Assembly (NCBI RefSeq): GCF_003751635.1
Contig: NZ_RJVI01000002.1
Location: 1 to 64,000 of the forward strand
Origin: Inmirania thermothiophila
GTDB taxonomy: Bacteria > Pseudomonadota > Gammaproteobacteria > DSM-100275
Direction of reading: 5' to 3'
DNA length: 64,000 nt
Within the stretch, counting starts at the first letter, position 1, and every line of letters begins with the position of its first letter. The notes beneath the pieces were generated by a model. It ran no database searches. It saw only the letters and a list, made by a program, of their open reading frames with translations, and was not told where the DNA came from. Of the stretch, positions 2,047 to 22,072 are shown one piece after another. Position numbers and translations under genes: made by a program.

Positions 2047-2778
2047 ATGGCATTCAGCTCTCCGGGTCTGCAGGCCGAGCCGTCGCTGGGTGTGCCCGGG
2101 CGCAAGCGCTGGGCGATGGTCATCGACCTGCGACGCTGCATCGGCTGCATGGCGTGCGTCTGCGCCGACAAGTCCGAGTTCGACGTGCCGCTGGGGGTGT
2201 GGCGCACCATCGTCAAGGTCAAGGACACCGGGCGCTACCCCAACACGCGCCGCCACTTCATGCCGCGGCTGTGCAACCACTGCGACAACCCGCCGTGCGT
2301 GCGCAACTGCCCCACCGAGGCCACCTACAAGCACGACGAGGGCTTCGTCCTGCAGCGCTACGAGCGGTGCATCGCCTGCCGCACCTGCATCGCGGCCTGC
2401 CCCTACAACGCCCGCCACGTCCTGCCCAAGAACCGCTCCCACGTGAAGATCGGCGGCGTGGTGGACAAGTGCACCTTCTGCCAGCATCGCGTGGAGAAGG
2501 GGCTGGTCCCGGCCTGCGTGCAGACCTGCCTCGGGCGCTCGCGCATCTTCGGCGACCTCAACGACCCCAACAGCGAGGTCTCGCGCCTGGTCGCGCGCCA
2601 CAAGACCGTGGTCCTCAAGCCGGAGAAGGGCACCTCGCCCCAGGTCTACTACATCAAGCCGGACCGGGCCATCGCCGAGGAGCGCTACACGGCGCCCGAG
2701 TCCTACGCGGCGAAGGCGGACCTCAAGGCCTTCATCCGGCACAACCGCGGCAGCCGGTTCTTCGCCGGCGTGCTCTGA
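2047..2778 (+). CDS. Molybdoenzyme iron-sulfur electron-transfer subunit (DmsB/PsrB/SoeB type)
   Basis: The 243-residue protein has four Cys groups, as in DmsB and PsrB: C31/C34/C37 with C39; C76/C79/C84/C88; C108/C111/C114/C118; and C142/C145/C157/C161. It would pass electrons between the molybdenum subunit (3699) and the quinone-binding anchor (2797). It has no signal peptide, so it is probably exported with the Tat-bearing Mo subunit. The first group is unusual: the family pattern CxxCxxCxxxC would have a fourth Cys at residue 41, but this is Asp (codon GAC), with an extra Cys at 39. The start ATG 2047 follows a GAGGAGGA Shine-Dalgarno; longer upstream starts run through the promoter. Confidence 0.88.
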   Translation: MAFSSPGLQAEPSLGVPGRKRWAMVIDLRRCIGCMACVCADKSEFDVPLGVWRTIVKVKDTGRYPNTRRHFMPRLCNHCDNPPCVRNCPTEATYKHDEGFVLQRYERCIACRTCIAACPYNARHVLPKNRSHVKIGGVVDKCTFCQHRVEKGLVPACVQTCLGRSRIFGDLNDPNSEVSRLVARHKTVVLKPEKGTSPQVYYIKPDRAIAEERYTAPESYAAKADLKAFIRHNRGSRFFAGVL

Positions 2779-2796
2779 TCGGGGAGGGGTGACGAG

Positions 2797-3672
2797 ATGT
2801 TCGAGTACATGCAGTACAACGTGCTCCCCTGGGGGCGCGAGCTGGCGATCTACTTCTTCCTCGTGGGCATGGCGGCGATGACCTTCGTCCTCGCCGCGGC
2901 GCCCAACGTCTTCGGCGGCGGCACCGCGGCGCTGCAGCCGACCCAGAAGATCGCCTCCGTGGTGGTGCTGGTGCTGCTCGCGGTCTGCGGCGTGATCCTC
3001 ATCGAGGATCTCGGCCAGCCCGGGCGGTTCCTGTATCCGCTGCTCTATTTCCACGTCAGCTCTCCGCTCTCCTGGGGCTCGCTGTTCGTGGTCCTGTTCG
3101 GGCTTGCGGCGCTGGTCTTCGCCTTCGCGGTGTTCACCGGGCGCGACGGTCTGCTCCGCCCGGTGGGGATCGCAGGCTCCGTCCTCGCCCTGCTGCTGCC
3201 GCTCTACACCGGCTGGGACCTGATGGCCAACCAGGCGCGTGAGCTGTGGCACTCGCCGGCGATCCCGCTCATGTTCGTCGCCCTCTCGGTGAACTCCGGT
3301 GTCGCCCTCATGTCGGTGATCGCCATGGCCACCGGGGCCATGAACGAGGAGACGGCGGCATTCCTGCGCCGGGTGCTCGCCTTCTCGCTGGTGGCGACCC
3401 TGGTGATCTTCATCGCCGGTGTGCTGCGCGTGAACTACGGCTCCGCCGAGGAGCAGATCGCCTGGCAGATCATCAACGAGGAGTTCGGGACCAAGTTCTG
3501 GCTCCTGAGCCTCGTGGTCGGGGTCCTGGTCCCGCTGGTGCTGGTGCTGGTGCCGGGCCTGGGGGCCTCGCCCGCCATGATCACCCTGGCCGCGGTGCTC
3601 GCCACCATCGGCGCCTACACCTACCGCGAGGTCTACCTCCTCGCGGGCCAGCTCCCCATGCTCACCTTCTGA
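2797..3672 (+). CDS. NrfD/PsrC-type quinone-interacting membrane anchor subunit
   Basis: The 291-residue protein is almost entirely hydrophobic, with about eight to nine predicted transmembrane segments, the first beginning near residue 14 (AIYFFLVGMAAMTFVL). The FFLVGMAA start, the GHSTP-like central region with conserved charged residues, and the position between an Fe-S subunit and a Mo-bisMGD subunit fit the NrfD/PsrC/SoeC family. This anchor binds quinone and tethers the complex to the periplasmic face of the membrane. A GGGGAGGGGTGA stretch precedes ATG 2797, and the gene starts 18 bases after the Fe-S subunit stop, consistent with one operon. Direction of electron flow (quinone reduction or quinol oxidation) cannot be told from this subunit. 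Confidence 0.85.
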   Translation: MFEYMQYNVLPWGRELAIYFFLVGMAAMTFVLAAAPNVFGGGTAALQPTQKIASVVVLVLLAVCGVILIEDLGQPGRFLYPLLYFHVSSPLSWGSLFVVLFGLAALVFAFAVFTGRDGLLRPVGIAGSVLALLLPLYTGWDLMANQARELWHSPAIPLMFVALSVNSGVALMSVIAMATGAMNEETAAFLRRVLAFSLVATLVIFIAGVLRVNYGSAEEQIAWQIINEEFGTKFWLLSLVVGVLVPLVLVLVPGLGASPAMITLAAVLATIGAYTYREVYLLAGQLPMLTF

Positions 3673-3698
3673 GCCCGGTTTCGCTAGGAGACGACGCC

Positions 3699-6362
3699 AT
3701 GAGCGAGCTCAAGATCAGCCGACGCAACTTCCTCAAGCTGGGCGGCGCGGTTGCCGGTGCCAGCGGCCTGACCCTCGGCTCCCGGCGCCTCAAGGCCATG
3801 GAGCAGGATCTGGGCGGGCGCGACTACTCCGCGGTCACCGGCGCCGAGCGCAAGGCGGTGCCCTACACCTGCCTGACCTGCAACATCGAGGACGGCGGCG
3901 TGGCCTTCGTGGAGAACGGCCGCATCGTCAAGCTCGAGGGCAACATGGACCACCCCAACACCCGCGGCAAGCTCTGCGCCAAGGGCAACTCGGGGTGGCT
4001 CCACGTCTACGACCCCGACCGCATCATGACCCCGCTGATGCGCACCGGCAAGCGCGGCGAGGGCAAGTGGCGGCGCATCAGCTACGACGAGGCCACCAGC
4101 ATCGTCGCCAAGAAGCTGCGCGAGGTCATCGACCGCTCGATCCGCGAGCACGACCCCGGGATCCGCAACGAGATCGTCTTCAAGTGGGGTCGCAACCGCA
4201 CCGGCGGCGCCATCAAGCGCTTCATGCACGCGCTGGGCTCCAACTCGCTGGTCAACCACACCAACATCTGCGAGTCCTCGAAGAAGGTCGGGCTGGAGCC
4301 GGCCTGGGGTCCCGACATCGAGTCCTGCGACTGGGCGAACACGAAGTACATCCTCAACTTCGGCTCCAACATCCTGGAGGCGGCGTACTTCATGAACCCC
4401 AACGCCCAGCGCTGCGTCGACGGCGTCGTGGGCAACAAGGCCAAGATCGTCACCTTCGACGTGCGCATGTCCAACACCGCCGGCTGGTCCGACGAGTGGC
4501 ACGCGCCCTATCCCGGCACCGACGCCGCCATCGCCCTGGCCATGGCCCACGTGATCATGAACGAGGGCCTCTACGACGACGAGTTCATCCGCGACTGGAC
4601 CAACGTCACGCCGGAGCAGCTCAAGGCCCACCTCAAGCCCTTCACGCCGGAGTGGGCGGAGAAGGAGTCGGGCGTGTCGGCGCGCGACATCCGCCGCATC
4701 GCGCGGGAGTTCGCCACCACCAAGCCCGCCACCACCTTCTCCTACCGCGGCCCGTGCAAGCACGTCTACGGCTCCTACCAGGAGGCCGCGATCCAGATGC
4801 TCAACGTCATCACGGGCAACGTGGAGACCCGCGGCGGCTACTGCCTGCCCCGGGGCATGGGCTGGCCGCAGCCCGAGCCGGTGCCGCCGAAGCCGCCGGT
4901 GCCGAGCGTCATCGGCGCGCCGCCCATCTATCCGCTCGCGTCGCACGCGGTCTCCACGCATGCGCCGTACCAGGTGATGGCGGGCGAGGCCAAGGTGTCG
5001 GTCTGGTTCGCCTACTACGACAACCCGGTCTACACCTATCCGGCCGCGCACGTCTGGGAGCGCTTCCTCAAGGACGAGAAGCTGGTGCCGTTCTACGTCT
5101 CCTTCAGCCCCTACATGTCGGAGACGACGGAGCTTGCCGACCTCATCATCCCGGACGTGACCTACCTCGAGCGGCACGATCCGGAGTCCATGCCGGGCGG
5201 GCTCTATCCCTGCCTGTCCATCCGGCAGCCGGTGATCCAGCCCCTGGGCGGCACCCAGGAGTTCCGCCAGACCCTCATCGACATCATCCACAAGGTGGAT
5301 CCGGACGGCTCGCTCGGGATCAAGAAGTACTTCGCCTTCAAGAACCCCGAGGAGTGGATGCGGGCCCACTTCGACAACATCCCCGGGCTCAAGGAGGAGG
5401 GCGGCTGGGACTTCCTCAAGGCCAAGGGGGTGTGGCCCATCTACGGCAAGGTGGACAAGGAGACGGCCAAGATCGTCGACCGCAACGGCGAGGAGGTGCA
5501 GCCGGACTACCAGCTGCACAAGCGCGAGCTGAGCGCGGCCGAGATGGAGGGCGCCGAGGTGGGGCCCGACGGCGTCATCCGCAAGGACGGCCATCCCATC
5601 GGGGTGCGCATCCGCGGCCGCAACTACGTCGGCTTCGGCACGCCGTCGCGGCGGATCGAGCTCTACAAGGAGAGCTACCGCAAGTACGGCTTCAACCCGC
5701 TGCCGACCTACAAGCGGCTGCCCTCGCGCAACAAGAAGCCGGACGAGCTGGTGCTCACCACCTACAAGGTCAACGTCCACACCCAGAGCCGCACGGCCTC
5801 CATCAAGTACCTCGCCGAGCTCTACCACAAGAACCCGGCGTGGATGAACCCGAAGACGGCGGCCGCCCGCGGCCTCAAGGACGGCGACCTCATCCGCATC
5901 ACCTCGCCCATCGGCTACATGGTGACGCGGGTGCACGTCACCGAGGGCATCCACCCGGACGTGGTGGCGGTCTCCACCGCCTGCGGCCACTCCGCCTACG
6001 GGCGCCTGGCGCAGCTCAAGCACAAGGAGAAGGCCGCGGAGTGGGCGCAGGGTGGCGATCCCGACATCACCCACAACGTCTGGTGGGACGACAAGGGCGT
6101 GCACCCCAACTCCATCATCCCGGTGCAGGTGGACCCCATCGGTGGCTCCCAGGGCTGGTACGACACGGTGGTCACCGTGACCAAGGCCCAGCCGGGCGAC
6201 AAGTACGGTGACGTGGTCGCCGACTTCGAGAAGGCGGTCAAGGCCTACGAGCATCAGCTCCGCTACGCCTACACCGGCGATCTCCACCGCGCGAACCACC
6301 CCGAGGTGGACATCGACTGGGACAGCCTGCCGAAGCCCGAGGTGAAGGCCGGCGGTCACTGA
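3699..6362 (+). CDS. Molybdopterin oxidoreductase catalytic subunit, DMSO-reductase family (PsrA/PhsA/ArxA/SoeA-like)
   Basis: The 887-residue protein starts at ATG 3699 behind AGGAG (3686-3690). A twin-arginine signal (SRRNFLK, residues 7-13) precedes a hydrophobic stretch, so it is a folded, cofactor-loaded Tat substrate. The N-terminal Fe-S region has C58, C61 and C93, but residue 65, where CxxCxxxC enzymes have the third Cys, is Asp. C191 in NHTNICESS lies where PsrA/PhsA-type enzymes place the cysteine that binds molybdenum. The C-terminal part (LVLTTYKVNVHTQSRT, then LKDGDLIRITSPIG) is the molydopterin dinucleotide-binding domain. It should form a periplasmic ABC complex with the two preceding genes. 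Sulfur compounds, arsenite/arsenate or another oxyanion are all possible; I do not assign a substrate. Confidence 0.88.
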   Translation: MSELKISRRNFLKLGGAVAGASGLTLGSRRLKAMEQDLGGRDYSAVTGAERKAVPYTCLTCNIEDGGVAFVENGRIVKLEGNMDHPNTRGKLCAKGNSGWLHVYDPDRIMTPLMRTGKRGEGKWRRISYDEATSIVAKKLREVIDRSIREHDPGIRNEIVFKWGRNRTGGAIKRFMHALGSNSLVNHTNICESSKKVGLEPAWGPDIESCDWANTKYILNFGSNILEAAYFMNPNAQRCVDGVVGNKAKIVTFDVRMSNTAGWSDEWHAPYPGTDAAIALAMAHVIMNEGLYDDEFIRDWTNVTPEQLKAHLKPFTPEWAEKESGVSARDIRRIAREFATTKPATTFSYRGPCKHVYGSYQEAAIQMLNVITGNVETRGGYCLPRGMGWPQPEPVPPKPPVPSVIGAPPIYPLASHAVSTHAPYQVMAGEAKVSVWFAYYDNPVYTYPAAHVWERFLKDEKLVPFYVSFSPYMSETTELADLIIPDVTYLERHDPESMPGGLYPCLSIRQPVIQPLGGTQEFRQTLIDIIHKVDPDGSLGIKKYFAFKNPEEWMRAHFDNIPGLKEEGGWDFLKAKGVWPIYGKVDKETAKIVDRNGEEVQPDYQLHKRELSAAEMEGAEVGPDGVIRKDGHPIGVRIRGRNYVGFGTPSRRIELYKESYRKYGFNPLPTYKRLPSRNKKPDELVLTTYKVNVHTQSRTASIKYLAELYHKNPAWMNPKTAAARGLKDGDLIRITSPIGYMVTRVHVTEGIHPDVVAVSTACGHSAYGRLAQLKHKEKAAEWAQGGDPDITHNVWWDDKGVHPNSIIPVQVDPIGGSQGWYDTVVTVTKAQPGDKYGDVVADFEKAVKAYEHQLRYAYTGDLHRANHPEVDIDWDSLPKPEVKAGGH

Positions 6363-6368
6363 CCGGCG

Positions 6369-6396
6369 CGGGGGCGGGGCCGTGGCCCCGCCCCCG
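6369..6396 (+). other. Strong GC hairpin between the Mo subunit and chaperone genes
   Basis: Arms 6369-6381 and 6384-6396 are a perfect 13-bp inverted repeat (CGGGGGCGGGGCC and its complement) around GT. No T-run follows, so it is not a typical intrinsic terminator. It lies 6 bases after the Mo subunit stop and could stabilise the upstream mRNA or lower expression of the downstream chaperone gene. Confidence 0.6.
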
Positions 6397-6447
6397 GTCG
6401 CCTGCGGGCGGACGCGCCGGGGTCGAAACGGAGCAGAGGAGGCCGAG

Positions 6448-7170
6448 ATGGCCGCAACTGAGCTGGATACCGAGGACCGCCTCGCCCTGTGCCGGGCACA
6501 GGCGGGGCTGTACGGGTTTCTGGGGCGCTGCCTCGAGGAGGAGGTGGACCGCGATCTGCTGGATCTCGTGCGCGGCGAGCTGCGCGGGGCGCTGGCCGAG
6601 GCCGGCATGCCCTTCGACGAGGCGTTCTTCCGCGCCGATGCCGAGACGCTGCTCGCCGAGCTGGCCGAAGAGTTCACCACCTGCTTCGTGGCCCCCGGGG
6701 GCGTGGTCCCCTACTGGTCCGTGGTGGAGACCGGGATGATGTACCGCGAGCCGGCGCAGCAGGTGGAGGAGGCCTACCGCGAGGCGGGCTTCGCCTACCG
6801 GCGGCGGCTGAGCGGGGAGTTCCCGGATCACATCGGCACCATGCTGGGCTTCGTGGCCGCCCTCTGGGAGGCCGAGGCCGCGGCCCTCGAGGGGGGCGAC
6901 GAGGCGGCGGCGGCGCAGGCGCGGGCGCGGCGCGAGCGCTTCATGGTGGAGTGCCTCGGGCCCTGGGCCGTGGGCTGGTGCCGGCGGGCCGCCGAGGCGA
7001 GCTTCCACGTCTTCTACCAGCAGGTGGCGCGGGTCGCGGGGCAGGTCATCTGGTCGGATCTCGCCCGCCTCGTGGACAAGCGCCGGCTGCGCGAGCTGGC
7101 TGCGCTCAACGCGCGCGAGCCGAAAAAGCTCGACTACGACGCCGATTTCCGCAAGGCCTCTGGGCTCTGA
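6448..7170 (+). CDS. TorD/DmsD-family molybdoenzyme chaperone
   Basis: The 240-residue, mostly helical protein carries the TorD-family signature PDHIGTMLGFVAALW near residue 130, equivalent to the PDHxxxELxFM region, and a YxFLGRCLEEE start. These cytoplasmic chaperones bind the twin-arginine signal of their partner, hold it back from export and help insert the Mo-bisMGD cofactor. The partner is almost certainly the Tat-signal enzyme encoded 85 bases upstream. The start ATG 6448 follows AGAGGAGG at 6435-6442; a longer frame would begin inside the intergenic hairpin. It is the last gene before a terminator at 7190. Confidence 0.88.
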   Translation: MAATELDTEDRLALCRAQAGLYGFLGRCLEEEVDRDLLDLVRGELRGALAEAGMPFDEAFFRADAETLLAELAEEFTTCFVAPGGVVPYWSVVETGMMYREPAQQVEEAYREAGFAYRRRLSGEFPDHIGTMLGFVAALWEAEAAALEGGDEAAAAQARARRERFMVECLGPWAVGWCRRAAEASFHVFYQQVARVAGQVIWSDLARLVDKRRLRELAALNAREPKKLDYDADFRKASGL

Positions 7171-7189
7171 GGCCGGGAGGGGAGGGAAC

Positions 7190-7213
7190 GGGGCGGCACA
7201 GCCGCCCCCTTTT
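7190..7213 (+). terminator. Intrinsic terminator of the molybdoenzyme operon
   Basis: Arms GGGGCGGC (7190-7197) and GCCGCCCC (7201-7208) form a perfect 8-bp stem with the loop ACA, followed by C and a four-T run at 7210-7213. It lies 20 bases after the chaperone stop and separates this operon from the next gene group. Confidence 0.75.
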
Positions 7214-7233
7214 CGGCCTCGGAACCCGACCGC

Positions 7234-7239
7234 TATACT
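7234..7239 (+). promoter_or_regulatory. Possible -10 element (TATACT) next to the glycosyltransferase start
   Basis: TATACT at 7234-7239 resembles a sigma-70 -10 element in otherwise GC-rich DNA. No clear -35 is seen. Transcription would begin near 7246, almost on the start codon, so the message may be leaderless or start at ATG 7252. Confidence 0.4.
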
Positions 7240-7245
7240 CGGAGA

Positions 7246-8409
7246 ATGGCCATGAAGGTGCTCATGGTGGAGGCGAGCGGGCGGGGCTTTCTTGCCCACC
7301 ACGCCCAGGCCCTTGCTGCGGGCCTCGCCGGTGCGGGGGCGCGGGTGCGCATGGCGACGGCGGCGGGGGACGAACTCGCGGGGTGGCAGGCGCCCTTCGA
7401 GCGGCGGCACTGCCCCGGGCGGGACTGCTGGGGCTGGCTGCGCCGTGAGGTGACGACTTGGCGCCCGGAGGTGGTTCACCTGCAGTGGGTGGACAGCGCG
7501 TGGCAGGCGTGGCGGTTCACCCGCTGGGCGCAGCGGCAGGGCGCGGCGGTGCTCGCGAGTCCGCACAACATCCTGCCCCACCGCGGGCGGCTGCGGCGGC
7601 TGCCGGCGCATCTGCTCTGGTACCGGGCGCTGGATGCGGTGGTGGCCCGGGACGCCCACCTGGGCTGGGCGCTGGAGGAGATCTTCGGCCTGCCCAGGGA
7701 GCGCGTGGTGGTGGACGAGCGCACGCCCAACCTCATGGGGCTTCCGGGCTTCCCGCGCCGCAGGCCGCCGGAGCTTGCGCCCAGGGCCGCGGGCGAGCTG
7801 CGCCTGCTGGTCTTCGGGCACGGCGCGCCCAGCAAGGGCGTAGGGGTGCTGCTGGAGGCTCTCGCCGGGCTCGAGGCTCCGGGGCTGCACCTGGTGCTCG
7901 CGGGCCAGGACCCGCTGCGGGGGGTGCCGGCGGGGCGGCTGGGGGCGGCGCGGCGGCGGGTGCGGGTCAGCGTCATCGACCGCTACCTGGAGCCCGCGGA
8001 GGGGGCCTGGCTGCTGCGCGACGCGGATCTGCTGGTGCTGCCCTACACCAAGCTCTGCCACAGCCCCCAGCTTGCGCTTGCGCGCGACTGCGCGCTGCCG
8101 GTGCTGCGCACTCACCGCGTCCAGGGCATGGACTTCGCGGAGGGGCGGGATGGTGTTACCGTGAAGGCGGGCGAGGGGGCGGCGCTGCGGGAGGCGCTGG
8201 CGGCACTCGCGGCGCAGCCCGGACGTCTCGCCGCGATGCGGCGGGCGCTGGCGGAGGCGGCGCAGGCGGAGGCGGCGCTTGCGGGGCTTGCGCGGATGCA
8301 TCTCGCACTCTACGAGCGGCTGCGGCAGGGTGCGGCGGCGCGGGCCGCGGGACGGGCCGCGATGCAGGCGCGCCGGAGCATCGGAGCCGGCGCCGGCGGG
8401 GGAACATGA
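7246..8409 (+). CDS. Glycosyltransferase family 4 (GT-B fold) protein
   Basis: The 387-residue protein has the two-Rossmann GT-B layout. The N-terminal half begins MKVLMVEASGRGFLAHHAQALAAGLAGAG and includes VVHLQWVDSAW. The C-terminal half has RLLVFGHGAPSKGVGVLLEAL, typical of the nucleotide-sugar domain of group 1 transferases, and LLRDADLLVLPYTK, the usual region after the donor-binding loop. It has no signal peptide and is presumably cytoplasmic or membrane-associated. ATG 7252 (MKVLM) is an equally good start. Its last bases overlap the next gene (ATGA, 8406-8409), so it shares a transcript with a redox cluster, an odd partner for a glycosyltransferase. Donor and acceptor are unknown. Confidence 0.75.
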   Translation: MAMKVLMVEASGRGFLAHHAQALAAGLAGAGARVRMATAAGDELAGWQAPFERRHCPGRDCWGWLRREVTTWRPEVVHLQWVDSAWQAWRFTRWAQRQGAAVLASPHNILPHRGRLRRLPAHLLWYRALDAVVARDAHLGWALEEIFGLPRERVVVDERTPNLMGLPGFPRRRPPELAPRAAGELRLLVFGHGAPSKGVGVLLEALAGLEAPGLHLVLAGQDPLRGVPAGRLGAARRRVRVSVIDRYLEPAEGAWLLRDADLLVLPYTKLCHSPQLALARDCALPVLRTHRVQGMDFAEGRDGVTVKAGEGAALREALAALAAQPGRLAAMRRALAEAAQAEAALAGLARMHLALYERLRQGAAARAAGRAAMQARRSIGAGAGGGT

Positions 8410-8816
8410 CGGCGGCACAGACGGTCATTCTCATCGCGCACGAGGGGCGGCTGGAGGAGCTGCTCAAGCTCATGGAGAAGCGCCGGGAGGTGTTCGAGCA
8501 CTACCGGCTGCTCGCCACCAGCGAGACCGGGGCCGCGATCGAGGAGCGGCTCGGCCTCGAGGTGACGCACCTCTTCTCCGGGCGCAAGGGTGGCGAGATC
8601 CAGCTCTGCGGGCTGGTCTGCACCAACAGCGTGCGCGCGGTCTTCTTCCTGCGCGACCCTGCGGGTGCGGCCCCGGACGAGCCCGACATCACCCCCTTCT
8701 ACCGTGCCTGCGACCTCAACAACGTCCCGTTGGCCACCAACCTGGGCACGGCGGTGGCGCTCACCCAGTGGCTGGGGCGCAAGGTGGCCCGCGGCAGGGA
8801 GGAGGCGGCCCCGTGA
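8406..8816 (+). CDS. Methylglyoxal synthase-like protein with altered active site
   Basis: The 136-residue protein aligns along its whole length with methylglyoxal synthase (MgsA), which turns dihydroxyacetone phosphate into methylglyoxal: ILIAHEGRLEELLKLM, LLATSETGAAIEERLGLEVTHLFSGRKGGE, FFLRDP and PLATNLGTA are all recognisable. The catalytic positions differ. The Asp of the GGDQQ motif (Asp71 in E. coli) is Glu, and the His of PHDPD (His98) is Asp in PDEPD, while the last Asp of that motif (Asp101) is kept. The protein may therefore have another role. It overlaps the glycosyltransferase (ATGA) and the ferredoxin gene (GTGA), so it is translationally coupled to both. Confidence 0.7.
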   Translation: MTAAQTVILIAHEGRLEELLKLMEKRREVFEHYRLLATSETGAAIEERLGLEVTHLFSGRKGGEIQLCGLVCTNSVRAVFFLRDPAGAAPDEPDITPFYRACDLNNVPLATNLGTAVALTQWLGRKVARGREEAAP

Positions 8817-9994
8817 GGATGGACGATCTCGCCCAGGCGGTGCAGGCCCTCGACGGCTCGGCCCTGGTGGTGGACGACGAGTTCTGTCTCAACCTCAGGG
8901 GCCGCAGCGAATGGTGTTCGGCCTGCGCCGACGTCTGCCCCCATGAGGCCCTGGCCCTGAGCCTGGACGAGGTGGCGCTGGACGGGGAGCGCTGCACCGG
9001 CTGCGGCGCCTGCGTCCCGGCCTGTCCGGCGGGGGCCTTACGGCTGACGGGGTTTTCCCCGGCGCGGCTGCTGGAGACGGTGGCCGGGCAGGAGACGGTG
9101 CGGCTGCACTGCCGGGAGAGTCGCAGCCGCGCAGGCGGGGTCGTGATCCCCTGCCACGCGGTCCTCGATGCGCGCCTGGTGGCGGCGATGGCCGCCGACG
9201 GCGTCGCCGAGGTGGTGCTGCACGGTCTCGAGGGCTGCGAGGGCTGCGCGCGGGGTGACGCCCGCGCGGCGGTGGAGCAGGTCCACGAGCGGCTCTCGGC
9301 GTGGTTCGGGCCGCAGGCGCCCAAGCTGCGGGCGGCCGACGGCGCCGAGGAAGGCGCGGCGCAGGCAGGGGACGTGCGCGCGCGCGCCGACCAGGTGCGC
9401 ATGAGCCGGCGCGCCTTCCTGCGCTTCGCGGGGGCGAGGGCCGCCGACGGCGCGCTGGCGGCGGTGCCCGCCACCTGGGCGCTCGCCGCCGAGGACGAGG
9501 ACGAGCGCCTCGACCTCGACGAGCCGTCGCCCTTTTTCCAGGGCGAGGTGGAGCGCCAGCGCGAGGCGGCCTACCAGGCGGTGCTCGCGCCGCGGCTCGC
9601 CGGGCTGCCCTGGGTCGCCGATCTCGAGGCTCCGCCGTGGCGGGGGCGGCGCATCGAGGCCCACTGCACCGCCTGTCTGAGCTGCGGCACCCGCTGCCCC
9701 ACGGGGGCGCTGCGGGCGGAGGAGAGCGACGGGGAGCGGCGCATCGTCTACGACGCCGCCCGCTGCACCGACTGCGCCCTGTGCGAGCGGATCTGCCCGG
9801 CGAAGGCGATCCACCCGGAGCCGGCCCCGCCGGCGGTGGTGCGCGAGGGGACGGTGGTGCTGATGGCACGGGCGCTGGTGCCCTGCGCCCACTGCGAGAC
9901 GCCCTATCTGCCGGAGTCGGAGGACGGGCTGTGCCCGACCTGCCGCAACGAGCGGGAGCTCGACGACGAATGGATGTCCTGGCTCGGAGGCTGA
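8813..9994 (+). CDS. Multi-cluster 4Fe-4S protein with internal twin-arginine-like motif
   Basis: The 393-residue protein contains two ferredoxin-like modules. The N-terminal one has C35xxC38xxxC42P and C61xxC64xxC67xxxC71P. A middle domain carries C100, PC114 and GC142xxC145. The C-terminal module has C285xxC288xxC291xxxC295P and C318xxC321xxC324xxxC328P, then a CxxC...CxxC ribbon (C358, C361, C374, C377). Between the halves lies SRRAFLR (198-204) followed by an Ala-rich stretch, which looks like a Tat signal in mid-protein, as if a cytoplasmic ferredoxin were fused to a NapF/NapG-like one. GTG 8813 is chosen because GGGAGGAGG ends 7 bases before it; ATG 8819 is the alternative. Its electron partners are unknown. 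Confidence 0.75.
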   Translation: MRMDDLAQAVQALDGSALVVDDEFCLNLRGRSEWCSACADVCPHEALALSLDEVALDGERCTGCGACVPACPAGALRLTGFSPARLLETVAGQETVRLHCRESRSRAGGVVIPCHAVLDARLVAAMAADGVAEVVLHGLEGCEGCARGDARAAVEQVHERLSAWFGPQAPKLRAADGAEEGAAQAGDVRARADQVRMSRRAFLRFAGARAADGALAAVPATWALAAEDEDERLDLDEPSPFFQGEVERQREAAYQAVLAPRLAGLPWVADLEAPPWRGRRIEAHCTACLSCGTRCPTGALRAEESDGERRIVYDAARCTDCALCERICPAKAIHPEPAPPAVVREGTVVLMARALVPCAHCETPYLPESEDGLCPTCRNERELDDEWMSWLGG

Positions 9995-9995
9995 G

Positions 9996-10259
9996 GTGCG
10001 GTGGCTGGTGGCGGTCGCGGCGGTCTCGCTCGGCGGCGCGGCGTGGTGGTGGTCGGCCCAGCCGCGCACGCCGGCGGAGCTCTTCCGCACCCGCTGCGCC
10101 ACCTGCCATGAGCTGCCGGACGTCTGCGTCTTCGCGCCGGCGGACCGGCCGTCGATCGTGGACACCATGCGCAGCGCCAACGGGGCCGATGCCGTGATCG
10201 ACCCCGAGGAGGCGGCGCGCATCAAGGCGTATCTGAGGGAGGGCCTGAAGTGTCCGTAG
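9996..10259 (+). CDS. Small membrane-anchored mono-haem cytochrome c
   Basis: The 87-residue protein starts at GTG 9996. An N-terminal hydrophobic segment (WLVAVAAVSLGGAAWWW) could be an uncleaved signal anchor. One haem c motif, CATCH, follows at residues 34-38. The downstream part includes PSIVDTMRSANGADAVIDPEEAARIKAYL, the helical C-terminal half found in small cytochromes c, with a Met in DTM that could be the axial ligand. It would lie on the periplasmic side of the membrane. It starts 1 base after the Fe-S protein stop and overlaps the next gene by 10 bases. Confidence 0.75.
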   Translation: MRWLVAVAAVSLGGAAWWWSAQPRTPAELFRTRCATCHELPDVCVFAPADRPSIVDTMRSANGADAVIDPEEAARIKAYLREGLKCP

Positions 10260-11319
10260 AGGACGCGGCCCGCAAGCTGGGCCTGGAGCAGCGGGTGCTG
10301 GCGGCGCTGACGGCGGTCACCGTCGGCGTCGACGGCAGCGACGTGGTCACCTCGGGGCAGGTCTACGACGTCGTCGCCACGGGCGGCGCGGTGCGCATCC
10401 TCATCGACCCGGACAAGGTGCCGGAGCCGCTCCAGGAGGAGCTGGCGCAGGTGATCGCGCCCTACGTGGAGTCGCTGCCCGGGGTCGAGCGCGTGGTGGT
10501 CAAGCCGCGGCCGCGGCCGGTGGCGCAGCGCGAGCGCATCCCGGGGATCGCCCACGTGGTGGGCGTGCACAGCGGCAAGGGGGGCGTGGGCAAGTCGACG
10601 GTGGTGGTCAACCTCGCCGTCGCCCTGGCCCAGCGCGGCCTGCGCGTGGGGCTGCTGGACGCGGACGTCTACGGACCCTCCTGCCCGACCCTGCTCGGCC
10701 TCTCGGGCCGGGCCGAGGAGGATCCGGAGCAGGGCCGGATCGAGCCCAAGGTCGGGCACGGGGTCAAGGTCATGTCGCTCGGCTTCCTGCTGCCGGAGGG
10801 GCAGGCGCTGATCTGGCGCGGATCGCTGGTGGACGAGGGCCTGCCGCAGCTGTTCGAGCACGTGGCCTGGGGCGAGCTCGACGTGCTCCTCATCGACCTT
10901 CCGCCCGGGACCTCCGACGTGCACATCGCGGTGGCGCGCTACGTGCGGCTTGCCGGCATCGTCACCGTCACCGCGCCGGGGCAGGTCTCGGTGGACGACG
11001 TGCGCCGCGGCATGGAGATGTTCGCGGACATGGCGGTGCCCTGCCTCGGCCTGGTGGAGAACATGAGCGGCGTGGCCTGCCGCGGCTGCGGCCACGTGGC
11101 GGCGGTCTTCGGCGCCGGCGGTGCGCACGAGCTCGCCGAGCAGACCGGGCTGCCGCTGCTGGCGGAGATCCCCTTCGAGCCCGAGGTGAGCGAGCTCTGC
11201 GACGGCGGCCGTCCGGTGGTCACGGCGGCACCCGGCTCGCGCACCGCGGAGGGGATCGAGCGCATCGCCGCCGCCCTCGTGGAGCGGCTGGGTCTCGGCG
11301 CGCGCGTGGAGGCCTCGGC

Positions 11320-11323
<4 letters not shown>
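10250..11323 (+). CDS. Mrp/ApbC-family Fe-S carrier ATPase with N-terminal DUF59 domain
   Basis: The 357-residue protein begins at GTG 10250. Residues 1-90 form a MIP18/DUF59 domain. The P-loop NTPase domain follows, with the deviant Walker A GKGGVGKST, LLDADVYGPSCPTLLG and LIDLPPGTSDVHIAV. VENMSGVACRGCG supplies the CxxC pair that holds a bridging Fe-S cluster in Mrp/ApbC/Nbp35 proteins. These cytoplasmic ATPases assemble and deliver Fe-S clusters. The last codons overlap the next Mrp gene (ATGA). Two adjacent Mrp paralogues in a redox operon suggest dedicated cluster loading for the neighbouring Fe-S proteins; this is inference. Confidence 0.88.
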
Positions 11324-12258
<935 letters not shown>

Positions 12259-12278
12259 CCGCCGCGGGCCCGCGGCGG
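12259..12278 (+). other. Perfect 20-base GC palindrome between genes
   Basis: The palindrome spans 12259-12278, with left arm CCGCCGCGGG. As RNA it would form a hairpin directly before the AGGAGGTGA Shine-Dalgarno (12281-12289) of the next gene, so it could affect translation or mRNA stability. No T-run follows, so it is not a terminator. Confidence 0.5.
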
Positions 12279-12294
12279 AGAGGAGGTGACCGGA

Positions 12295-13050
12295 ATGAGC
12301 GTGACGCGACTGGTGGTGGAGCTCGGCACCCCGCCGGAGGCGGAGGCGGTGGAGGGGCTTGCGGGGGTGGAGGGTCTCGCCCTCGGCCCGCAGGCCCTGG
12401 AGGGGCCGCTGCCTCCGCTTCCGGAAGGGGCGCCCCTTGCCCTCTGCGGTGTCGATCCGGAGGTGGCACCGGCCTGGCACGGGCGGCCCGACACGGTCTG
12501 GGTCTGCGACGGCGGGCTCGAGGAGACGGCGCGGCTGCGCGATGCCTGGCCGGATCTCGTCTGGGTGCCGCGCACCACCGTGTACCAGCCCACGGTGCGC
12601 TACGAGTTCTCGCCGCATCTCGGCACCGAGAGCTTCAAGTTCTACGTCCCGGACATGGGGGCGATGCTGGCGCGGCGGGTCGGCGACGGCGACCAGGACG
12701 TGCGCCGCTGGGTGGTGCGCGCCGCCGAGCTCGGCTTCGGTACCGTGTGGCTGCACGGCAGCCAGGCCGAGGAGCGCGGCCGCGGCCTCGACCTCGAGGC
12801 CCTGGTGCGTGCGCGCAGCCGCTACGACGGCGCGATCTGGATCTCGGGCGGGGTGACGGAGCTGCGTCACCTCGAGAACCTGCGCCGCGAGGGCGGTGCG
12901 GCGGCGGTGGTGCTGCCGCCGGACCGCATCGCCGCCCTGGGCGTGGCCCCTGCGCTGGCCGCCCTGCGCCCTCAGGCGGGCGAGGCGCTGGCGGTGGAGG
13001 TGGCCCGCGGCGGCTGCCCGGGGGCGGCGGGCGAGGGGCTGCCCGCCTGA
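12295..13050 (+). CDS. Unrecognised protein, possibly TIM-barrel-like
   Basis: I do not recognise the family. The 251-residue protein is soluble, with no signal peptide or membrane segment. Its C-terminal half reads like the end of a beta/alpha barrel of the HisA type: FGTVWLHGSQ, then GAIWISGGVTELRHLENLRREGG and AAVVLPPDRI. The middle region (TVYQPTVRYEFSPH, SFKFYVPDMGAML) has several aromatic residues that could form a pocket. A near-perfect Shine-Dalgarno AGGAGGTGA (12281-12289) sets the start at ATG 12295. It sits between the second Mrp ATPase and an exported rhodanese-like protein, and overlaps the latter (TGATG). Confidence 0.5.
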   Translation: MSVTRLVVELGTPPEAEAVEGLAGVEGLALGPQALEGPLPPLPEGAPLALCGVDPEVAPAWHGRPDTVWVCDGGLEETARLRDAWPDLVWVPRTTVYQPTVRYEFSPHLGTESFKFYVPDMGAMLARRVGDGDQDVRRWVVRAAELGFGTVWLHGSQAEERGRGLDLEALVRARSRYDGAIWISGGVTELRHLENLRREGGAAAVVLPPDRIAALGVAPALAALRPQAGEALAVEVARGGCPGAAGEGLPA

Positions 13051-13511
13051 TGCGGCGTCTCGCCGCCGTCCTCCTGGCCCTCGCCGCGGGCGCGGCGGCG
13101 GCCCAGGTCGGCGCCGTGGACGCGGCCGCCTTGGCGCGCTGGCTCGAGGCCGGCGAGGCGGTCACCGTGATCGACCTGCGCCCGCAGGGGGACTACCTCG
13201 CCGGCACGCCGGTGGGGGCGCTGCACGCCGACCCCGCGCGGCCCGAGGCGGTGGGCCTGCCGGAGGGGGGCGGGCGCGCCGTGCTGCTCCTGCCGGCCGA
13301 CGCCGACGAGGGTCTGGTGGCGCGATGGGGGGCGGCGCTCGCCCGGACGGGCTACCGCGCCTATCGCCTGGCGGGGGGCGTGGAGGCGTGGAAGGCCGCC
13401 GGACTTGCGCTGGAGGTCCCGGGGGTGGGGCGGGTGCGCCCGGATTCCGTCCCCTTCGTGGTGCCGCGGGGGCTGTGCGAGATGAACACCCCCGCCCAGG
13501 TCTTCCGCTGA
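13050..13511 (+). CDS. Exported rhodanese-like domain protein lacking the catalytic cysteine
   Basis: The 153-residue protein has a signal peptide (MRRLAAVLLALAAGAAAAQ) followed by a single rhodanese fold: VTVIDLRPQGDYLAGTPVGALHADP, a central strand, and YRAYRLAGGVEAWKAAGL. In active rhodaneses a Cys sits in the loop after the central strand; here that region reads LLLPADADEG with no Cys. The only Cys of the mature protein is near the C-terminus (PRGLCEMN). It may bind a sulfur compound or a partner rather than act as a sulfurtransferase. The start ATG 13050 overlaps the previous stop. The pentahaem cytochrome gene follows 3 bases later, so both should act in the periplasm. Confidence 0.75.
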   Translation: MRRLAAVLLALAAGAAAAQVGAVDAAALARWLEAGEAVTVIDLRPQGDYLAGTPVGALHADPARPEAVGLPEGGGRAVLLLPADADEGLVARWGAALARTGYRAYRLAGGVEAWKAAGLALEVPGVGRVRPDSVPFVVPRGLCEMNTPAQVFR

Positions 13512-13514
13512 GGC

Positions 13515-14429
13515 GTGGCCTGGGCGGCGGTGGCGGCGGCGCTGGCCGCGTGCGCCGGCTGCCACCCGGGGGCGACCGCGGACTTCGCCGGCACCGCGAT
13601 GGCGCGCGCGGCCTCGACCCCGGGCTTCGTGGCGGAGTGGGGGCGGGCGGGGCGCGACCCCGCCTGCCTGCGCTGCCACGCCCCCGCTGGGGGCCCGGGC
13701 GTCGGGTGTGCCGCCTGCCACGGCGAGGGCCATCCCGGGGCGCAGGCGGACCCGGTGCGGGCCTGTGCCCGCTGCCACGACGCACCGGGGGAGAACACCC
13801 TGCGCAGCTATGCAGCGAGCCGGGCGGCGCGCGCCGGGCGGACCTGCATCGACTGCCACGCCCCGCGGGGACGGCCCCACGCCCTACGGGGACCCGCCAC
13901 GGGGGCGCTGCTGCCGGGGTCGGTGGATCTGACCGGCCTGTGGCGGGGCGACGAGGTGGAGCTGGTGCTGGCGGCGCGGGCGGGGCATGCGGTGCCCGGG
14001 GGGACCTCGGGGCGGGCCCTGTGGCTGGTGGCGGAGGCCCGCGACGGTGCCGGGCGCGTGGTGGCCGAGGCGCGCTGGCGCTTCGGCTGGGAGTACGCCG
14101 ACGGGGGCTGGGTCGACCGGACCCTGTGGCCCGACCGGCCGGCCCGCCGCCGATTCGCCGTCCCGCCCCAGGCGGTGGCGGTGGCGGCGCGGGTGCTCTA
14201 TCGCCTTGCGCCGTCGCCCGAGCCCGAGGGGCCCGACGCCGTCCTCGTCGCCCGCCGGCGCTGGCGCCGGCCGGCGGTGGGGCGGCGAGGCGCTGATACA
14301 ATGAACGATCCGGACCGCCGGGGAGGATGGCATGGCACGGTTGTGCCTGGTGGAGGACGATCCCATCATGGGCGAGTCGCTGAGCGACCGCTTCCTGCTG
14401 GAGGGGGTCGCCTGCGACTGGTTCCGTGA
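13515..14429 (+). CDS. Pentahaem cytochrome c, probable lipoprotein or membrane-anchored
   Basis: The open frame of 304 codons starts at GTG 13515. Five haem c motifs are visible: CAGCH (13-17), CLRCH (51-55), CAACH (65-69), CARCH (84-88) and CIDCH (111-115). The rest is a beta-rich domain with GHAVPGGTSGRALWL, the GHxxPxG element that supplies a distal His in several multihaem cytochromes. The N-terminus is a short hydrophobic signal ending in LAAC, so the lipobox Cys would coincide with the first Cys of CAGCH. The frame runs 98 bases into the response-regulator gene and its last 40 or so residues look like unselected sequence. The true end may be nearer 14290 if there is a frameshift, but the sequence as given has no earlier stop. 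Confidence 0.7.
   Translation: MAWAAVAAALAACAGCHPGATADFAGTAMARAASTPGFVAEWGRAGRDPACLRCHAPAGGPGVGCAACHGEGHPGAQADPVRACARCHDAPGENTLRSYAASRAARAGRTCIDCHAPRGRPHALRGPATGALLPGSVDLTGLWRGDEVELVLAARAGHAVPGGTSGRALWLVAEARDGAGRVVAEARWRFGWEYADGGWVDRTLWPDRPARRRFAVPPQAVAVAARVLYRLAPSPEPEGPDAVLVARRRWRRPAVGRRGADTMNDPDRRGGWHGTVVPGGGRSHHGRVAERPLPAGGGRLRLVP
14297..14302 (+). promoter_or_regulatory. Possible -10 element (TACAAT) of the response-regulator gene
   Basis: TACAAT at 14297-14302 stands out in GC-rich sequence, 30 bases before ATG 14332. No convincing -35 is visible. It lies inside the 3' part of the cytochrome reading frame, which suggests that the regulator has its own promoter. Confidence 0.4.
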
Positions 14430-15699
14430 CGTCGGGGCCGCCCTGCGTGCGCTCGGGCGCGGCGGCTACGCCGCGGTGGTGAGCGACATCCGCCTGCCCG
14501 ACGGCAGCGGCGAGGATCTCTTCCTCGCCCTGCGCGAGCGCCTGCCGGCGGTGCCGCCCGTCATCTTCATCACCGGCTACGGCCAGGTGGAGCAGGCGGT
14601 GCGGCTGCTCAAGCTGGGGGCGCGCGACTACATCACCAAGCCCTTCGACCTCGACGCCCTGCTGGAGAAGCTGCGCGGGACGGCGCCGGAGCTCTTCGCC
14701 GAGGACGGCGGCGAGGCGGTCCTCGGGGTCTCCCCGGCGATGCGGTCCGTGGAGGCGATGCTGCGCCGCTTCGCCCCGCACCGCACCACGGTGCTGATCA
14801 CGGGCGAGTCCGGCGTGGGCAAGGAGCATGCCGCCCGCTTCCTCCACGCATGCGGCGGCGCCGAGCGCCCCTTCGTGGCGGTCAACTGCGCCGCCTTCCA
14901 GGAGTCGCTGCTGGAGGCGGAGCTCTTCGGCTACGAGAAGGGGGCCTTCACCGGCGCCGTGCGCAGCCACCGCGGCGTCTTCGAGCGCGCCCACGGCGGC
15001 ACCCTGTTCCTCGACGAGGTGGCGGAGATGTCGCCGGCGATGCAGGCCAAGCTCCTGCGCACGCTGCAGGAACGCACGGTGCAGCGCGTCGGCGGGGAGC
15101 AGCCGCTGGAGGTGGACGTGCGCCTGGTCTGCGCCACCAACCGCGATCTGCGCACGATGGTGGAGGCGGGGGCGTTCCGCGAGGACCTCTACTACCGCAT
15201 CCATGTCGCCCACGTCGCCATCCCGCCCCTGCGCGAGCGCCGCGAGGACGTGCTGTGGTTCGCGCACCGCTTCGTCGAGGAGTTCGCGCGCGCCCACGGC
15301 GAGCCGCGCCATCTGCTCCCGGTGGCCGAGCGCTACCTGATGGAGCAGGACTGGCCGGGCAACCTGCGCGAGCTGCGCCATGCGGTGGAACGCGCCTGCA
15401 TCCTCGCCGACGGCCCGGCCATCGGTCCGCGCGAGCTGGGGCTGGGCCGGCAGGGGGCGGCGCAGCCCGCGGCCGAGCGCATGGACCTTAGAGGCTTTCT
15501 CGAGCACTGCGAGGCGCAGTACATCCGCGACGCGCTCGAGGCCCACGGCTGGCGCATCGCGGAGACCGCGGAGGCCCTCGGCATCAGCCGCAAGAGCCTG
15601 TGGGAGAAGATGCGCCGCCACGGCATCCGCGCCGGCGACGGGCGGGGTGGCGCCGAGGGTGCGGACGGGGATGCGACGCCGGGGGAGGGTGGGTCATGA
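14332..15699 (+). CDS. Sigma-54-dependent response regulator, NtrC family
   Basis: The 455-residue protein has three domains in order. The receiver (about 1-118) has acidic residues ED at 8-10 and the phosphorylatable Asp52 in VVSDIRLPDG. The AAA+ domain (about 135-370) has Walker A GESGVGKE, the sigma-54 contact motif GAFTGA, and Walker B GGTLFLDEVAEM. The C-terminus is a Fis-type helix-turn-helix (WRIAETAEALGISRKSLWEKMRR). Intact GAFTGA means it should activate sigma-54 promoters. The only consensus sigma-54 promoter I found in the window lies upstream of the molybdoenzyme operon (1959-1974). The kinase at 19735-21225 is the nearest candidate partner. GGGAGG at 14321-14326 supports ATG 14332. 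Confidence 0.9.
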   Translation: MARLCLVEDDPIMGESLSDRFLLEGVACDWFRDVGAALRALGRGGYAAVVSDIRLPDGSGEDLFLALRERLPAVPPVIFITGYGQVEQAVRLLKLGARDYITKPFDLDALLEKLRGTAPELFAEDGGEAVLGVSPAMRSVEAMLRRFAPHRTTVLITGESGVGKEHAARFLHACGGAERPFVAVNCAAFQESLLEAELFGYEKGAFTGAVRSHRGVFERAHGGTLFLDEVAEMSPAMQAKLLRTLQERTVQRVGGEQPLEVDVRLVCATNRDLRTMVEAGAFREDLYYRIHVAHVAIPPLRERREDVLWFAHRFVEEFARAHGEPRHLLPVAERYLMEQDWPGNLRELRHAVERACILADGPAIGPRELGLGRQGAAQPAAERMDLRGFLEHCEAQYIRDALEAHGWRIAETAEALGISRKSLWEKMRRHGIRAGDGRGGAEGADGDATPGEGGS

Positions 15700-19734: not shown

Positions 19735-21225
19735 CTATGGGAGGACACCGATCTCCCGATCGGGCGGGTGGCCGGGTGCGTCCTCCCGGTCCAGGGGGAG
19801 GGTGACGCGGAAGCGGGTGTCCCCGGCCTCGCTGGTGACCTGGATCTCCCCGCCGAGGCCGTCGACGATCTGGTAGGTGACCCAGAGGCCGAGCCCGCGC
19901 CCGCCGGCCTTGGTGGTGGCGAAGGGCTCGAACAGCCGCGGCAGGGCCTCGGCGGGGATCGGGGGGCCGTCGTTGCAGACCTCGAGCCGGACGAGGCCGC
20001 CCTCGATCGAGGCGCGGACGCCCACGCGGCCGCCCTCGGGGGCGGCCTGGACGGCGTTCAGCAGGAGGTTGATGAGGACCTGGCGGACCAGGCTCGCGGG
20101 CAGGCGGGTGCGCTCGGGGATGCGGTTGTCCCACGCGAGGGTGATGCCGCGGCGGCCCGCCTCCGGGGCCACCAGCCGGCGCACGTCCTCGATGTCCTCC
20201 CGGGTCAGGGGGTGGGGGTCGGGACGCGCCTCCACCAGGAGCGCGGCCACGGTCTCGCGGATCTGGTGCAGGCCGCGCTCGAGCAGGGAGACGGTGCGCT
20301 GGGTGAGGGGGTCGTCGCAGCCATGGCGGCGCAGGGTGCTCACGGCGTTGAGCAGCCCGCCGAGGGGGTTGTTGATCTCGTGGGCGATGCCGGCGGTGAA
20401 GCGGCCGATGGCGGCGAGCCGCTCGGCCACCACCATCTGCTGTTCCAGGCGCTGCTTCTCGCGCAGCTCCGCCACCATGCGCTCGAACTGGACCGCGAGC
20501 TGGCCGATCTCGTCCCCCGCCGCGGGCAGCTCCAGCTCCACCCGCTCCGGCACCTCGCGGCCCACCGCGCGCATGGCGCGCGCCAGGCGCACCAGCGGCT
20601 CGGCGTACTGGGCCCCCCAGTAGGCGCCCAGCGGCAGCAGGAAGACCACCGCAAGCAGGGTCGCGGCGACGGCGCGGCCGCCGAAGCCGAGGATGCGCTG
20701 GCGGAAGATCTCGCGCGGGTAGGACATCACCAGCGTCCCCAGGAGGACGCCGTCGGAGACGATGGGCACGGTGACGTGGAAGCCCTGACCCGAGGGGGGG
20801 GTGAAGGTCTGCTCGGTGCCGGTGCGCGCGGCGGCGACGAGGTCGCGCACGGCGGCGTACTCGGGGCCGTCCTCGCCGGGGTCGCTCTGCATCGGGAAGC
20901 GCCGCGGCTCGGTGGAGACGTAGACCCGGGCCATGGGGTCGAGGATCATCAGCAGGTCCGGCCGCAGTCCGCCGCGGGCGTGGGCCTCGGGAAGGGCCGA
21001 GGCGATGATCTCGTAGGCCTTCCAGACGTCGTCGTGCAGCAGCGCCGGGGTGAGGGTGCGGGCCAGCAGGCGGCCGGTGGCGGTGGCGGTGGCGGTGAGG
21101 TCGGCGCGCAGGTCCTGCGCCGCGCGCACGAGCAGGGCGCTGGTCACCACCAGCGCGGTGACGAGGATGAGGACGGTGGTGCGCAGCGGCACCTTGTAGC
21201 GCAGGCTGAGATCCCGCAGGGTCAT
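19735..21225 (-). CDS. Membrane sensor histidine kinase, NtrB-like
   Basis: The 496-residue kinase has a transmembrane segment at about 15-35, a periplasmic domain, a second transmembrane segment at about 182-205, a HAMP-like linker, then a dimerisation domain with His282 in GIAHEINNPLGGLLNAV. The ATPase domain follows with NLLLNAVQAAPEGG (N box) and GGRGLGLWVTYQIV (G2 box). The HEINNP form is typical of kinases paired with NtrC-type regulators. It starts 4 bases after the stop of the PhnD-like binding protein, so the two should sense a ligand together. No response regulator is adjacent; the NtrC-type regulator at 14332 is the likely partner. Confidence 0.88.
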   Translation of the reverse strand: MTLRDLSLRYKVPLRTTVLILVTALVVTSALLVRAAQDLRADLTATATATGRLLARTLTPALLHDDVWKAYEIIASALPEAHARGGLRPDLLMILDPMARVYVSTEPRRFPMQSDPGEDGPEYAAVRDLVAAARTGTEQTFTPPSGQGFHVTVPIVSDGVLLGTLVMSYPREIFRQRILGFGGRAVAATLLAVVFLLPLGAYWGAQYAEPLVRLARAMRAVGREVPERVELELPAAGDEIGQLAVQFERMVAELREKQRLEQQMVVAERLAAIGRFTAGIAHEINNPLGGLLNAVSTLRRHGCDDPLTQRTVSLLERGLHQIRETVAALLVEARPDPHPLTREDIEDVRRLVAPEAGRRGITLAWDNRIPERTRLPASLVRQVLINLLLNAVQAAPEGGRVGVRASIEGGLVRLEVCNDGPPIPAEALPRLFEPFATTKAGGRGLGLWVTYQIVDGLGGEIQVTSEAGDTRFRVTLPLDREDAPGHPPDREIGVLP

Positions 21226-21229
21226 GGCG

Positions 21230-22072
21230 TCAGGGGGCGACGGCGAGCATCATGGCGCGGATGTCGGCGAAGAGGGTGTCGTCGCCCGGGGTGAAGCCGT
21301 CCAGATTGAGCCGCGCGAGGATCTGCCGGCCCTCGGGGTCGCGCGCCATCCCCACCAGCACCCGCCGCAGGGCCGCCACCGTCGCCTCGTCCGCGTCGGC
21401 ACGGGCGACGATGGGCGGGAAGCCGAACTTGCGCGAGCGCTCCACCACCCGGGTGCGCGCGGTGAGCTGCGGCTCGGTGCGCGCGAGGCTCTCCCAGATG
21501 TAGCCGTCGACGGCGCCGCCGTCGGCGAGGCCCACCGCCACCGCCTCCACCACCTTGCGGTGGGCCCAGGTGAAGAAGGTGCGGCGGAAGAAGCGGGCCG
21601 GATCCCGCCCGAGCGTGCGCAGGCGGTACTGGGGCACGAGGAAGCCGGAGTTGGAGTCCGGGTCCGAGTAGGCGAAGACCCTGCCATTGAGGTCGAGGAT
21701 GGAGCGCGTGTCGGTGTCGGAGGCGGGCACGATGAGATAGGACTGGTAGAGGGGCTCGCCGCGATAGAGGGGCACCGCCACCAGCCGCAGGCGCTCGCGG
21801 AAGCGCACGTAGGGGAAGCCGCAGAGCCAGGCGGCCTCGGCGCGCCCGGTGACGAGCAGCTCCACCACCTCGCGGTAGGCGGTGCGCTGGACGAACGCCA
21901 CCGGCCGGCCGAGACGCCGCGCCAGGTAGTCGCGCCACTGCTCCAGAAGCCCCGTGCGGTCGTCGAGGATGACCGCGGTGAGGCCGATGCGCAGCGGCGG
22001 CGCCGGCGAGGCGGGGGCGGGGCCCAGCAGGAGCACGAGCCCCAGGATGAACGCGCGCGTCACCGTCTTCAT
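21230..22072 (-). CDS. PhnD-like periplasmic binding protein, probable sensor partner of the kinase
   Basis: The 280-residue protein has a signal peptide (MKTVTRAFILGLVLLLGPAPASP) and the PhnD/phosphonate-binding fold: LRIGLTAVILDDRTGLLEQW, YREVVELLVTGRAEAAWLCGFPYV, FAYSDPDSNSGFLVPQY and FFRRTFFTWAHRKVVEAVAVGLADGGAVDGYIWESL. No ABC permease or ATPase accompanies it; the next gene is the histidine kinase. That arrangement matches AioX/ArxX, where a PhnD-like protein detects an oxyanion and hands the signal to a kinase. An AAAGG Shine-Dalgarno supports ATG 22072. Transport of phosphonate is the less likely alternative. Confidence 0.8.
   Translation of the reverse strand: MKTVTRAFILGLVLLLGPAPASPAPPLRIGLTAVILDDRTGLLEQWRDYLARRLGRPVAFVQRTAYREVVELLVTGRAEAAWLCGFPYVRFRERLRLVAVPLYRGEPLYQSYLIVPASDTDTRSILDLNGRVFAYSDPDSNSGFLVPQYRLRTLGRDPARFFRRTFFTWAHRKVVEAVAVGLADGGAVDGYIWESLARTEPQLTARTRVVERSRKFGFPPIVARADADEATVAALRRVLVGMARDPEGRQILARLNLDGFTPGDDTLFADIRAMMLAVAP

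Follow-up and report, generated by a model that had tools for sequence, protein, structure and literature searches.

Genes at the locus

The 64,000-nucleotide stretch of Inmirania thermothiophila DNA analysed here (the window) carries at 2047–14429 a 13-gene operon that is kept across Gamma- and Alphaproteobacteria. In clade I of the relatives the gene order is B, C, A, TorD, glycosyltransferase, MGS, ferredoxin, cytochrome, Mrp, Mrp, HisF-like, rhodanese and multihaem cytochrome, although detection of the operon genes was incomplete in some clade I loci, partly because the locus ends. The genes in the window are as follows.

2047–2778, forward: subunit B, four-cluster ferredoxin with motif I CIGCMACVCADK (sequence)
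2797–3672, forward: subunit C, NrfD/PsrC membrane anchor (Pfam NrfD, 1e-33)
3699–6362, forward: subunit A, catalytic Mo-bisPGD subunit of 887 aa with a Tat signal (ATG start; Pfam)
6448–7170, forward: TorD/NarJ-type chaperone (Pfam Nitrate_red_del, 4.5e-18)
7246–8409, forward: glycosyltransferase family 4 (GT4) (annotation, conserved)
8406–8816, forward: methylglyoxal-synthase-like (MGS-like) protein (annotation, conserved)
8819–9994, forward: multi-cluster ferredoxin (annotation, conserved)
9996–10259, forward: small c-type cytochrome-like protein (weak Pfam match; kept throughout the operon's relatives where detected)
10250–11323, forward: Mrp/ApbC-type P-loop ATPase 1 (annotation, conserved)
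11320–12258, forward: Mrp/ApbC-type P-loop ATPase 2 (annotation, conserved)
12286–13050, forward: possible HisA/HisF-like barrel protein (weak Pfam match, 1.7e-4, conserved)
13050–13511, forward: rhodanese-like protein with a signal peptide (annotation)
13515–14429, forward: multihaem c-type cytochrome (annotation)

The operon is widely spread, and is undescribed in the literature searched, where no account of it was found.

The FS0 ligand site of subunit A

Pfam matches to subunit A, all above their gathering scores (Molybdopterin, Molydop_binding, Molybdop_Fe4S4 and TAT_signal), supplied the molybdopterin, dinucleotide-binding and Fe4S4 domains of the MopB (DMSO reductase) superfamily, and an AF2 model (pLDDT 85.4) had the expected fold, with ArrA (6cz7) and PsrA (2vpw) as its nearest structures. 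The residues relevant to the N-terminal FS0 cluster and to the Mo site were located as follows.

3870–3881, forward: FS0 ligands C58 (3870–3872) and C61 (3879–3881) (sequence, alignment)
3891–3893, forward: D65, codon GAC, at the third FS0 ligand position (sequence, alignment)
3975–3977, forward: FS0 ligand C93 (sequence, alignment)
4257–4283, forward: H187, C191 (predicted Mo ligand, codon 4269–4271) and K195 (alignment with ArrA and PsrA; conserved in clade I)

Both the letters and the alignments agreed with the earlier note, which had read CLTCNIED...GKLCAKG with an Asp (GAC) at residue 65: the pattern is C58-x2-C61-x3-D65...C93, in which D65 stands opposite the third Cys of the CxxCxxxC motif in PsrA (CEGCFWRCG), ArrA (CQGCTSWC) and related proteins. 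C191, which is kept in clade I, stands opposite the Mo Cys of PsrA and ArrA, and is flanked by ArrA-like Arg, His and Lys residues that PsrA lacks in the alignment.

Conservation of the aspartate

Twenty-three homologous loci with 71–80% identity were present in the genome collection, distributed among Chromatiales, Rhodospirillales and Rhodobacterales, and Asp occupied the third position in all 22 that cover the FS0 motif, the remaining locus (L027) beginning past it. The same residue was found in every member of clade Ib (~59% identity: L041, L056 and the Azoarcus locus L087), and throughout clade II (~42% identity, CPYFDGG, ~785 aa). Clade III, with 34–40% identity and the motif CWQCVTR[C/D], comprised nine Cys-state members and three Asp-state members (L044, L047 and L051) in the tree. 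The canonical four-Cys FS0 pattern (CxxCxxxC...C) was consequently absent from clades I and II and from these last three proteins.

When the 38 Asp-state proteins (25 from clade I, ten from clade II and three from clade III) were aligned, C58, C61, D65 and C93 were kept in all 38, with no Ala, Ser or Gly at position 65, and K95 proved likewise invariant in alignment A2. The presence of Asp in all close homologues covering the motif, encoded by both GAC and GAT (the window gene being counted more than once), rules out a private mutation or sequencing error at D65. The earlier note had proposed such an alignment as a check on whether Asp65 is conserved across a clade, naming Cys in close homologues, or another Cys at the ligand site, as the findings that would count against it; neither was encountered, and no Cys had been gained as a replacement ligand in any Asp group among the 38 proteins.

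In clade II (L034 and L058–L066) the Cys that ligates Mo has been lost together with its GR/H/C (Arg/His) neighbours, while the three Cys and one Asp at FS0 are kept; its members are probably electron-transfer proteins devoid of normal Mo catalysis. In the wider group the FS0 pattern was mostly CCCC, with CCTC in L039 and CLDS in L036. L039 carries Thr at the third ligand position (CNQCGGQTGITC), with a further Cys four residues on. In the relative recorded as L036 and L078, only C-L-D-S is left at the FS0 ligand positions and the Mo ligand is gone, L036 having lost both C61 and C93.

One further irregularity was a TGA in place of the codon for the first FS0 Cys of L048 (also recorded as L057 and L077:7688) in G271, a complete genome with SelB. 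Selenocysteine was considered at this site and judged the less likely reading: three close relatives have TGC or TGT there, the sequence downstream being almost identical, and the hairpin was no better than those of shuffled sequences, so that a private nonsense change or an error is likelier.

Origins of the aspartate and a second ligand change in subunit B

Trees, parsimony and the approximately unbiased (AU) test were run with the FS0 columns left out. Parsimony required two Cys/Asp changes, and a single clade of all Asp proteins, as a single origin would demand, was rejected by the AU test with p = 1.5e-4, the test group being one defined by the trait and including long branches. As judged from these sequences, Asp at the third FS0 position arose at least twice.

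Motif I of subunit B exhibited a change of its own, to CxxCxxCxCAD, in which Asp takes the place of the final Cys and an additional Cys stands two residues before it. We found this form in the window, in all clade I Chromatiales members and in L023, L029 and L067 (13 homologous loci besides the window), whereas the other alphaproteobacterial members of clade I and every outgroup had CxxCxxCxxAC; on the subunit A tree the Asp state of subunit B needs two changes. By analogy with NarH, the replaced Cys is presumably a ligand of the cluster to which motifs I and IV both contribute.

Regulatory elements

The features that would govern expression of the operon lie on either side of it.

1855–1870, forward: GTTAC-N6-GTAAC dyad GTTACCCGCAGGTAAC, probable activator site (motif count)
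1959–1974, forward: sigma-54 −24/−12 site TGGCATGCAGGTTGCA upstream of B (no other perfect match in the window)
14332–15699, forward: NtrC-type sigma-54-dependent response regulator (55% identity with its counterpart next to the Azoarcus operon)
19735–21225, reverse: sensor histidine kinase (47% identical to the Azoarcus homologue)
21233–22072, reverse: AioX-family periplasmic sensor (phmmer against AioX 6esv, E 1.3e-69)

The AioX homologue is the sole copy in the genome. The Cys opposite Cys106 of AioX, the residue that binds arsenite in that protein (PMC5908839), is kept in the window homologue and conserved in the loci. In the search of the window for −24/−12 sites, 1.6 matches would be expected by chance at up to one mismatch. 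Dyads of the GTTAC-N6-GTAAC form numbered 33 in the 11 kb upstream of the operon (window plus relatives) as against seven in 451 kb elsewhere; in its strict form the dyad occurs once in the window and twice in many relatives. Paired palindromes plus a −24/−12 box likewise precede aioBA (PMC3834237), and the dyad and promoter of this operon match that layout, so that by sequence both the sensor with its arsenite-binding Cys and the upstream elements are of the AioXSR type. An AioXSR-like three-component system, sigma-54 promoter and dyads (1855–1974, 14332–15699 and 19735–22072) here accompany an operon other than aio. Adjoining the AioX gene is a possible molybdate-type ABC transporter (22172–24698) consisting of an SBP_bac_11 protein, a permease and an ATPase with TOBE.

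AioX homologues adjoin the operons of clade Ib, many of those of clade I and all three of the Asp-state clade III, often together with the kinase and regulator. None was found near the clade II loci, although clade II has Asp, and the Cys-state L074 has two dyads; the association of Asp with this form of control is therefore not a strict one.

Comparison with known enzymes

The nearest precedent for the ligand set is the Kuenenia nitrite oxidoreductase subunit NXR-A, also a Mo-bisPGD subunit, in which an FS0 bound by C67, D71, C75 and C115 has been solved, and whose authors tie ligation by Asp or His to tuning of the potential (PMC8387239). Subunit A resembles it in sequence by having a conserved Asp for one Cys with the other three Cys kept. 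However, NXR-A is NarG-type with Asp at the second position (CxxxDxxxC...C), whereas subunit A has it at the third (CxxCxxxD...C) together with a predicted Cys ligand to Mo, and scored 54 bits with the NarG model against a cut-off of 1084. Since Asp occupies the third position here and the second in NXR, the site in subunit A is a new FS0 variant. Asp also replaces a cluster Cys in the ferredoxin of Pyrococcus furiosus, which differs from subunit A in being a small ferredoxin with the pattern CxxDxxC.

The ABC complex shares its subunit plan, Tat export, Cys ligand to Mo and NrfD anchor with PsrABC and PhsABC, and PhsA was the best NCBIfam match of subunit A (379 bits, below the cut-off of 694), but those enzymes have a CCCC FS0 and different residues around the Mo ligand. 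With ArrAB and ArxAB there is a likeness in fold (ArrA 6cz7 being closest), in the Arg, His and Lys around the Mo Cys, and in regulation of the AioX/ArxX/ArrX type. They differ in the CCCC FS0 of ArrA (L094) and of the ArrA/ArxA-like L095, in gene order, and in the nine extra genes of the present operon; subunit A scored 188 bits with the ArrA model against a cut-off of 1600, and L094 and L095 branched apart from clade I, these being the only two ArxA/ArrA reference rows and lying on long branches. The likeness to the AioXSR-controlled aioBA operon consists in the sensor with an arsenite-binding Cys, the histidine kinase, the sigma-54 regulator, the palindromes and the −24/−12 box. The enzyme encoded here is nevertheless not AioBA: its FS0 and subunits differ, and subunit A scored only 30 bits with the AioA model (TIGR02693) against a cut-off of 359.

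Function and substrate

On the evidence of its sequence, the complex is probably a periplasmic quinone-linked oxidoreductase responsive to metalloid (arsenite). Its expression would be switched on by the AioX-type three-component system acting with the sigma-54 promoter, a form of control that points to arsenite, or some comparable trivalent metalloid or chalcogen oxyanion, as the probable substrate. As regards substrate, direction and potential, we infer with moderate confidence that the enzyme is linked to quinone, acts on arsenite or an oxyanion like it, and has an FS0 tuned by Asp. The window also contains ACR3 and arsC-like genes (50953–52523, reverse), the ACR3 having 72% identity with the one that adjoins the operon in Azoarcus; ACR3 was not found beside the operon at most of the loci examined.

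Alternatively, the operon could be unconnected with metalloids, its AioX-like sensor recognising another oxyanion (sulfur, selenium or phosphite) and its enzyme acting on a sulfur compound, a proposal compatible with Asp at FS0. The PhsA match, albeit below cut-off, would suit such a role, as would the many sulfur oxidisers among the hosts, the rhodanese gene within the operon, and the TusA and DsrE genes adjoining a distant relative in Rhodococcus RHA1. It accords less well with a sensor that keeps the Cys by which AioX binds arsenite, with ArrA as the best fold match, with an ArrA-like rather than PsrA-like set of residues around the Mo ligand, and with the occurrence of ACR3 in this window as well as next to the operon in Azoarcus, and we regard it as possible but doubtful. 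The stronger version of the metalloid proposal, namely a further As/Sb-responsive respiratory molybdoenzyme apart from Aio, Arx and Arr, having two clusters with a non-Cys ligand (FS0 and, in part of the family, this genome included, that of the subunit B CxxCxxCxCAD motif), is itself tentative, and falls somewhat short of an even chance.

Nature of the FS0 cluster

The conserved ligand residues, the two origins of Asp, the operon and its regulatory elements are features of the sequence itself; the best reading of them is an FS0 ligated by three Cys and one Asp, and either 4Fe or 4Fe/3Fe interconvertible. The cluster would have C58, C61 and C93 as ligands, with D65 binding through its carboxylate, in a resting state that is probably [4Fe-4S](Cys)3(Asp), with an Asp-bound iron that may be labile. 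Electrons would pass through it between the Mo-bisPGD, with C191 as predicted ligand, and the four clusters of subunit B, which in turn would communicate with the quinone pool via the NrfD-type subunit C. The harder oxygen ligand most likely moves the potential of FS0, probably upwards, as would fit a comparatively oxidising couple.

That the site houses a working cluster is suggested by the FS0 with three Cys and one Asp already solved in NXR, and by L036, in which real loss has taken other ligands and the Mo ligand too. The state of clade II, with three Cys and Asp retained in spite of the lost Mo-ligating Cys, points to selection on the cluster site itself. It also shows, as a reservation about the reading given above, an Asp site independent of normal Mo catalysis.

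A less probable arrangement, though one that retains some weight, is a [3Fe-4S] cluster held by C58, C61 and C93 only, with D65 as a non-binding stand-in. High-potential [3Fe-4S] clusters do occupy the FS0 place in AioA and IdrA (PMC10100899), and the regulation seen here is aio-like. A residue that binds nothing need not be Asp, yet neither Ala, Ser nor Gly replaced it in the 38 proteins; Asp was moreover acquired twice, and from NXR is known to be capable of binding FS0 iron. Asp-ligated clusters of ferredoxins interconvert between 4Fe and 3Fe, which would lend the 3Fe form some further plausibility.

Outright loss of FS0, leaving the remaining Cys as relics or as structural residues, is very improbable. 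Cofactor loss is known in the superfamily (PMC10100899) and the related L036 offers an example of CLDS lacking C61, C93 and the Mo ligand, but the invariance of C58, C61 and C93 in 38 proteins, and of K95 in alignment A2, is hard to reconcile with it. In NarG and DmsA, FS0 must be assembled before the Mo cofactor is inserted (PMC10609526), and since clade I keeps its Mo Cys an FS0 is to be expected there. Least credible of all is a fourth ligand from elsewhere (such as H85, invariant in clades I and II, or a distant Cys) with Asp in the second shell, as H85 is missing from the Asp-state clade III proteins and no Cys is gained in Asp-state proteins.

The earlier note had suggested a modified or absent FS0 of unusual redox behaviour. 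Modification is upheld by an Asp that is fixed, convergent and always accompanied by the other three Cys; absence is not, because true loss resembles L036; and unusual redox behaviour is plausible by analogy with NXR and the ferredoxins. We consider the joint reading reasonably probable: an FS0 with three Cys and one Asp, in an enzyme that is under AioX-type control, is linked to quinone, and has arsenite, or some comparable trivalent metalloid or chalcogen oxyanion, as its substrate.

Implications

In Mo-bisPGD enzymes the ligand at the third FS0 position can evidently switch from Cys to Asp, has done so at least twice, and thereafter stays. Closely related enzymes in the Cys state (clade III) and in the Asp state constitute a natural test of tuning by a hard ligand at the cluster where the electron wire begins. 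The operon genes mark an unstudied, widespread system under control of the arsenite type, and it may represent a metalloid respiration so far missing from the record.
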